A DNA stretch of 64,000 nucleotides from the NCBI GenBank assembly GCA_016342745.1, contig JAEINT010000018.1:62001-126000 (forward strand), read 5' to 3'. The notes beneath the pieces were generated by a model, which ran no database searches, was not told where the DNA came from, and worked only from the letters and a program-made list of their open reading frames with translations. Positions 14,851-15,109 of the stretch are shown here, piece after piece. Origin of the DNA: Labilibaculum sp. (GTDB taxonomy: Bacteria > Bacteroidota > Bacteroidia > Bacteroidales > Marinifilaceae). The position numbers and the translations under genes were made by a program. How positions within the stretch are numbered: the first letter of the stretch is position 1; every line of letters starts with the position of its first letter.

Positions 14851-14921
14851 GATTTTAGTTTTTTTGGTTTTCAATTTGTCTCTAAAATAGCCTGATATAA
14901 TAAGAGCTAATAGCAAAAAAC

Positions 14922-14951
14922 AATAAGTGGGAGATTTCGATAATAAGTGGG
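14922..14951 (-). promoter_or_regulatory. Tandem 10-bp repeat upstream of the beta-helix gene (probable LytTR site)
   Basis: AATAAGTGGG occurs at 14922-14931 and again at 14942-14951, exactly 20 bp apart. In the direction of the - strand gene this reads CCCACTTATT twice, with the near copy 72 bases before the start codon. LytTR-type regulators bind paired direct repeats on one helix face about two turns apart, and a LytTR regulator gene lies in this locus. Binding itself is inferred. Confidence 0.6.
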
Positions 14952-15003
14952 CGGAATTAATGGCTCAATTATTATTAATTCGTCATTAATAATTACTTAG
15001 CGA

Positions 15004-15032
15004 CCACTTATTAGCTTATTTGCTCACTTGTT
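15004..15032 (+). promoter_or_regulatory. Tandem 9-bp repeat upstream of the sensor kinase gene (probable LytTR site)
   Basis: CCACTTATT (15004-15012) and TCACTTGTT (15024-15032) are again exactly 20 bp apart. They have the same orientation relative to the downstream gene as the pair at 14922-14951, and lie 78 bases before the ATG at 15110. The mirror arrangement in one divergent promoter region makes chance unlikely. Confidence 0.6.
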
Positions 15033-15109
15033 ATGTATTGAATAATAATTCGATTTAGAATTATTATCTTGAGCTTGGAAACCTTAAATCTATCTGTATA
15101 AACACTTAA

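Follow-up and report, generated by a model that had tools for sequence, protein, structure and literature searches.

The divergent promoter described here carries four copies of one 9-bp word, arranged as two pairs in the 259-bp intergenic region between two start codons (14851-15109) of the window, a 64,000-bp stretch of a Labilibaculum genome. We read the two pairs as operators of the LytTR response regulator encoded beside them, which would activate its own operon on one side and the operon of a beta-helix-like protein and a T9SS surface protein on the other, and we give this reading a probability of about 75%. A LytTR regulator made from the same locus had been proposed as a fit in the preliminary description, and the REC and LytTR domains of this protein, the way the pair follows its ortholog across genomes (6/6 vs 0/50) and the similar word and linker of published operators all support the proposal. 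With one regulator, two sites and one target operon, the locus would provide a regulator-operator pair that is complete and open to test in a two-component system of the Bacteroidota; among the paper titles listed in our literature search, none describes it.

Layout and conservation of the divergent promoter

Within each pair, the two copies run in the same direction at a pitch of 20 bp (start to start) with an 11-bp linker (9-11-9), and the pair is oriented toward its own gene (Table 1). On the plus strand the copies of the left pair read AATAAGTGG, which is CCACTTATT on the minus strand. Three of the four copies match CCACTTATT exactly, and the fourth, TCACTTGTT, is weaker with 2 mismatches. 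Offsets from repeat to start codon are 72 bases on the left (ATG 14850, minus strand) and 78 bases on the right (ATG 15110, plus strand). The left start is consistent with the starts of seven aligned homologs; a mechanical list of open reading frames gives an earlier TTG at 14916. Two mirrored pairs with a 20-bp spacing, 72-78 bases before their ATGs, had been described before, and we confirm their coordinates, orientation and spacing. The pattern given at that time, CCACTTATT-N11-CCACTTATT, is exact for the left pair and has 2 mismatches in the right pair. Precise spacing had been claimed as well; this holds for the 20-bp pitch and for the 32 bp to the candidate -7 elements, while the distances to the ATGs are a looser proxy.

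Table 1. Positions of repeats, candidate promoter elements and genes in the window
Feature	Position	Strand	Remarks
T9SS surface protein, 1124 aa	10387-13761	-	PKD and Por_Secre_tail domains (domain search)
Secreted beta-helix-like protein, 340 aa	13828-14850	-	first gene of left operon; no Pfam/NCBIfam match
Candidate left -7	14882-14889	-	TATTTTAG; 32 bp past proximal repeat; 5/6 fit to TANNTTTG; 5/8 columns invariant, no indel
Proximal repeat, left beta-helix promoter	14922-14930	-	CCACTTATT; 8/9 columns invariant in 8 genomes
Distal repeat, left promoter	14942-14950	-	CCACTTATT; pitch 20; 8/9 columns invariant in 8 genomes
Spacer between pairs	14951-15003	.	53 bp in the window; relatives have up to 153 bp more
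Distal repeat, right sensor-kinase promoter	15004-15012	+	CCACTTATT; 8/9 columns invariant in 8 genomes
Proximal repeat, right promoter	15024-15032	+	TCACTTGTT; pitch 20; 9/9 columns invariant in 8 genomes
Candidate right -7	15065-15072	+	TATCTTGA; 32 bp past proximal repeat; only 4/6 fit to TANNTTTG; 7/8 columns invariant, no indel
Sensor kinase, 968 aa	15110-18016	+	Reg_prop, Y_Y_Y, His_kinase; HATPase_c below cut-off
Response regulator, 278 aa	18023-18859	+	REC and LytTR; Asp58 conserved

Eight intergenic regions were aligned, namely those of the window, of G001 (same species), of Marinifilum caeruleilacunae, of Marinifilum breve and of four genomes of genus g11 (G029, G031, G034 and G035). 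With the candidate -7 elements omitted, 33 of 36 columns are invariant in the repeats and 79 of 207 elsewhere (Fisher p 7e-10, a descriptive value, with related rows whose kinship is ignored). The repeats, their 11-bp linkers and the 32 bp to the candidate -7 elements are free of indels in 8/8 genomes, and the pitch is 20 in all of them. The spacer that separates the pairs is up to 153 bp longer in the other aligned regions, and such freedom in length speaks against a DNA loop that would hold the two pairs in fixed phase.

The -7 consensus used here, TANNTTTG, is that given in the portion of PMC7366714 consulted, and no convincing TTTG at -33 was seen in the divergent promoter. The positions of the repeats fit a place directly upstream of the promoter of the regulator operon, with the -7 elements as candidates only. 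A recent inverted duplication, considered as the source of the mirror, is unsupported: the left and right 32-bp stretches are identical at 9 of 32 positions, with a shuffle mean of 10.2. Thus, the shared layout does not appear to be the leftover of such an event.

On the left, the gene for the T9SS protein is probably in one operon with the beta-helix gene, and the gap between them is 66 bp in the window and in G001, 51 bp in L109 and 2 bp in L110, L111 and L113. The AlphaFold2 model of the beta-helix-like protein shows a beta-helix pattern at modest confidence (mean pLDDT 64, pTM 0.70), with the last 74 residues (267-340) below 50. Its best Foldseek match has an E value of 5.6e-3; the matches listed are mostly beta-helix proteins (tail fibres, tailspikes and pectin methylesterases), and none of those listed is below E 0.001. 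On the right, the kinase carries a PF06580 His_kinase domain (8.8e-17), and its gene ends 6 bp before the regulator gene. Both regulator domains are over the cut-off (PF00072, 3.7e-19; PF04397, 3e-9), and D12, D58, K109 and P110 are invariant among 22 aligned homologs, with Asp58 as the putative phospho-acceptor. Of the 15 LytTR matches in the genome of the window, this regulator has the lowest score with the Pfam model (39.6 bits).

Occurrence of the repeat pair within and across genomes

The word by itself occurs at chance frequency, with 21 matches at up to 1 mismatch against 20.4 expected, and enrichment of the single word was rejected as a signal. The mirrored two-pair arrangement appears in 0 of 3000 dinucleotide-preserving shuffles of the intergenic region, which bears out the earlier statement that chance is unlikely. 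In the 5.37-Mb genome, the exact pattern YCACTTRTT-N11-YCACTTRTT is found at only two places, both in the divergent promoter. It had also been held that a motif common in unrelated intergenic regions would speak against the proposal; exact pairs are not common in other places, and loose matches are at control level.

When up to 3 mismatches to CCACTTATT-N11-CCACTTATT are allowed, the genome gives 14 matches and the reversed-pattern control 13. A wider regulon was sought with degenerate words at up to 2 mismatches in 12 genomes and rejected, as the 91 matches consist of 12 exact pairs and 79 others, against 78 in the control. Because loose matches stay at control level, no further regulon members are claimed. 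Two sites with 2 mismatches to the CCACTTATT pair fall on contig C10 and are near-matches that arise from a tandem repeat. This repeat (L079:1618-2455, G000, the genome of the window) has a unit of about 116 bp in about 7 copies and lies in a stretch without an open reading frame of at least 70 aa.

At an E threshold of 1e-25, 8 of 56 genomes of the family match the regulator. Six of these are orthologs with 85-100% identity; the matches in G002 and G032 have only 31-32% identity and were excluded from the ortholog count. Each of the 6 ortholog-bearing genomes has two copies of the exact paired motif, and none of the remaining 50 has any; the beta-helix gene is in the same 6 genomes and in none of the other 50 at E 1e-5. 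A bar of 90% completeness or more and 5% contamination or less is passed by 42 of the family genomes, including all 6 with the ortholog, and 14 fall below it. L109 and L110 are Marinifilum contigs (L110 from M. breve) outside these genome-wide counts, and L111, L112 and L113, which are the same contigs as G029, G034 and G031, were counted once. The M. breve contig has both pairs, and the M. caeruleilacunae contig has the right pair together with a left pair carrying one mismatch (distal left repeat CCAGTTATT). The co-occurrence of motif and regulator, in one clade of two genera, may represent one evolutionary event.

In an order-wide scan of 393 genomes, one exact copy each was found in two genomes besides that of the window, and the reversed-pattern control gives one. 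The match in G270 (L118:1501-1529) is a perfect CCACTTATT-N11-CCACTTATT with GTGG-like steps of 10 bp. The gene just downstream, recognised by eye, we take to be mraZ, and this pair is possibly an MraZ operator. The second stray match sits in a gap between genes, and no LytTR gene was recognised in its 3-kb locus.

Regulatory reading, known systems and alternatives

Starting from sites that are conserved, restricted to this locus and found together with the regulator, we infer that the regulator binds them, that binding depends on its phosphorylation, that it activates rather than represses, and that the exact -7 elements are those marked in Table 1. In this mechanism, the sensor kinase would phosphorylate the response regulator encoded behind it, and two regulator molecules would occupy each direct-repeat pair on one face of the DNA, since the repeats are about two helical turns apart. 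Bound regulator would then recruit RNA polymerase to the -7 element 32 bp downstream. One pair would drive the kinase/regulator operon as autoregulation in a positive loop, and the mirrored pair would drive the beta-helix/T9SS operon as the one target operon. The two promoters would act independently, because the DNA between them changes length. Other LytTR operons of the order also favour repeats two turns apart, which speaks for this reading, but their enriched pitch is 21 and not 20, which counts against it. Further points against it are the 4/6 fit of the right candidate -7, the failure to see a convincing TTTG at -33, the limitation of the co-occurrence to one clade, and the word by itself, which is not specific to the regulator, as distant LytTR proteins use nearly the same one.

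According to the part of PMC4847170 consulted, almost all LytTR operators consist of two repeats of 9-11 nt with spacers of 11-13 nt and share no consensus. The 9-11-9 layout on both sides agrees with this published format in 8/8 genomes. The sections of PMC6193735 used here give ACCACTTAT-12-ACCGCTTAT for BrsR and ACCACTTAT-11-GCCACTTAT for Treponema bryantii, and TATCTTTG in Bacteroides LRS-like promoters. Written in that 9-bp frame, the right-hand pair of the window is ACCACTTAT-11-CTCACTTGT, with TATCTTGA following after 33 nt. Counted in this ACCACTTAT frame, the candidate -7 of the window lies 42 bp from the start of the proximal repeat. From Table 3 of PMC6193735 we compute the same 42 bp for Clostridium botulinum, measured to the -10, and 45 bp for two Bacteroides, which have 11-bp repeats, measured to TATCTTTG. 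Judged by sequence, word, linker and distance are within or near the known LytTR pattern, and the Bacteroides rows fit less closely.

The LRS systems HdrRM and BrsRM, as presented in the same part of PMC6193735, resemble the window in having 9-bp direct repeats, a near-identical word and linkers of 11-13 bp; their repeats stand directly before the promoter of the regulator itself, where the candidate -7 would place those of the window. However, they pair a LytTR regulator with a membrane inhibitor and use no phosphorelay, whereas the window encodes a kinase and a REC-LytTR regulator and has a second, mirrored operator facing a divergent cargo operon. Since a kinase and a receiver domain are present, the system of the window is not an LRS. 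BtsSR and YpdAB of Escherichia coli share with it a LytTR regulator, a tandem-repeat operator and few known targets, the targets named in the excerpts of PMC5552118 and PMC4847170 used here being the transporter genes yjiY and yhjX. In contrast, the sensor of the window is of the Reg_prop/Y_Y_Y kind, and its operators are at its own operon and at a divergent surface-protein operon.

As in LytS/LytTR two-component systems, the kinase of the window has PF06580 and its gene is beside that of the regulator. Regulators of the ComE/AgrA type consist of REC and LytTR, as does the regulator of the window, but they belong to another phylum and work with another sensor. Foldseek ranks full-length ComE first for the regulator model (4cbv; E 1e-12, TM 0.34); the domains align and their mutual placement differs. 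No gene for a peptide pheromone, a feature of ComE/AgrA systems, was evident among the 7 neighbouring proteins scanned. The sensor resembles PDB 4a2l (E 1.6e-24), whose HTCS identity is taken from its molecule name. HTCS of Bacteroides such as BT4663 have a similar periplasmic sensor, and their direct-repeat operators average 21 bp apart according to the part of PMC3878776 consulted. An HTCS, however, is a single hybrid protein with an AraC-like DNA-binding domain, whereas kinase and LytTR regulator are separate in the window; with two proteins and no AraC domain found, this system is not an HTCS.

The alternative that deserves most weight keeps the same LytTR regulator and changes its sign: it would repress one or both promoters, or act as a repressor at the kinase operon and as an activator at the beta-helix operon. 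Either sign is compatible with the sequence, and the right candidate -7 is a weak match to the consensus, so that the true start site could be elsewhere. Nevertheless, we consider repression unlikely, because both pairs end 32 bp upstream of a candidate -7 without indels and overlap neither the -7 nor the start site, and because the position of the repeats is near that of positive LytTR autoregulation in the part of PMC6193735 used. Operators of another factor, such as another LytTR protein of the genome or an MraZ-like protein with GTGG repeats, are less probable still. There are 15 LytTR genes to choose from in this genome, and one of the two stray exact matches in the order is just upstream of the by-eye mraZ of G270. 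Yet in the family exact pairs occur at this locus alone and only where the regulator is present, though between 3 and 19 LytTR genes are found in each of 9 scanned genomes among the 50 others. The G270 match had led us to consider MraZ boxes, which were rejected for the window; the left pair has no third GTGG midway between its two.

The remaining two explanations seem to us more improbable still. Since the left pair nearly equals the right one in reverse complement, a stem could in principle arise, and the inverted halves might form an RNA hairpin, a terminator or a cruciform. However, the region is upstream of both divergent genes, the loop would measure 53 to about 206 bp, and what stays fixed is the distance from repeats to candidate promoters and not the dyad; we regard a hairpin as very improbable. 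Pure chance is the weakest of all and close to negligible: single words are indeed as frequent as expected, but the shuffles give no mirrored arrangement and the repeats are conserved in 8 genomes of two genera.

Repeat pitch at other LytTR operons and a proposed exchange of the surface cargo

Repeat pitch was analysed in the leaders of 80 LytTR loci, with 13 from the genome of the window, 15 from relatives and 52 from five genera of the family, orthologs included. The first set started from 33 genes, 13 of G000 (L139 was not recovered and was omitted) and 20 of relatives, of which 5 were without a usable upstream region and 28 were kept. For the later set, collected after the first 28 had hinted at a signal, 60 of 112 listed LytTR matches were taken and 52 were usable. 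Direct repeats of 9-mers with up to 1 mismatch peak at a pitch of 21 (14 of 80 loci; shuffle mean 3.3, maximum 8). This is the only pitch above the shuffled maximum, and 0 of 100 shuffles reach 14 at any of 28 pitches. The first 28 loci by themselves show a weak excess at pitches 20-22 (p 0.035; exact 8-mers p 0.365), and the later 52 have 10 loci at pitch 21 with the next best pitch at 5. With exact 8-mers, no peak at pitch 21 was found in either set.

The pitch-21 loci are not all independent, because L128, L201 and L181 among them are orthologous operons with a common ACCGAT word at this pitch. The window itself, at pitch 20, is one base pair off the enriched value. Pitch 20 as a general LytTR signature is unsupported, since 9-mers give it in 4 of 80 loci, near the shuffled level; 10-mers also give pitch 20 in 4 of 80 loci, and shuffles average about 1.1 at pitch 21. 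A match to TANNTTTG of at least 5/6 bases is found at 31-34 from the repeat centre in 6 of the 14 pitch-21 loci, three of them orthologs, compared with 37 in the window, which is suggestive only. The 21-bp pitch offers a means of reading the operators of uncharacterised LytTR systems from sequence.

The genes on the two sides of the promoter have different relationships in M. breve. In the trees of the kinase and of the regulator, M. breve and M. caeruleilacunae fall together (support 100/100 and 83/87; identities 80% and 93%). The beta-helix protein of M. breve shares 70-72% identity with g11 proteins and 37-40% with those of other Marinifilum loci, and an AU test rejects the grouping of M. 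breve and M. caeruleilacunae for this protein (p 2e-11). Co-inheritance of cargo and sensor was therefore rejected; the sensor goes with the regulator and not with the cargo.

The DNA up to about the start codon is 85% identical between M. breve and M. caeruleilacunae and 66% between M. breve and L. euxinus. The next 2.2 kb or so of M. breve is closest to Labilibaculum (L110:253-4679 compared with L109, L076 and L077). Of the 15 stretches of 150 bp beyond this block, 11 of M. breve are nearer to M. caeruleilacunae, 3 are tied or slightly lower and 1 is not comparable; alignment of the T9SS gene is uncertain owing to internal repeats. The mosaic block thus takes in the mature beta-helix protein together with the N-terminal half of the T9SS protein, behind a promoter and operator of the Marinifilum type.

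Exchange between relatives is the simplest reading of this mosaic, and long-kept alternative alleles that were sorted differently would look the same. As a tentative proposal, which we hold to be possible rather than probable, the locus may be a fixed control dock with exchangeable cargo. The regulator and its two operators, which are the whole detectable regulon, would be inherited vertically, and the block of about 2.2 kb after the left start would be swapped between lineages, with promoter, start and T9SS tail kept. If this is true, the locus would be a dock-and-cargo system made for displaying alternative surface structures under the control of a single sensor. The difference in cargo suggests that a constant signalling locus can bear interchangeable surface proteins.

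A comparison was also made within the species, between the window and G001 (L073). The regulator is 100% identical, the kinase 99% and the beta-helix protein 89%, and the adhesin has 1124 aa in the window and 1194 aa in G001.
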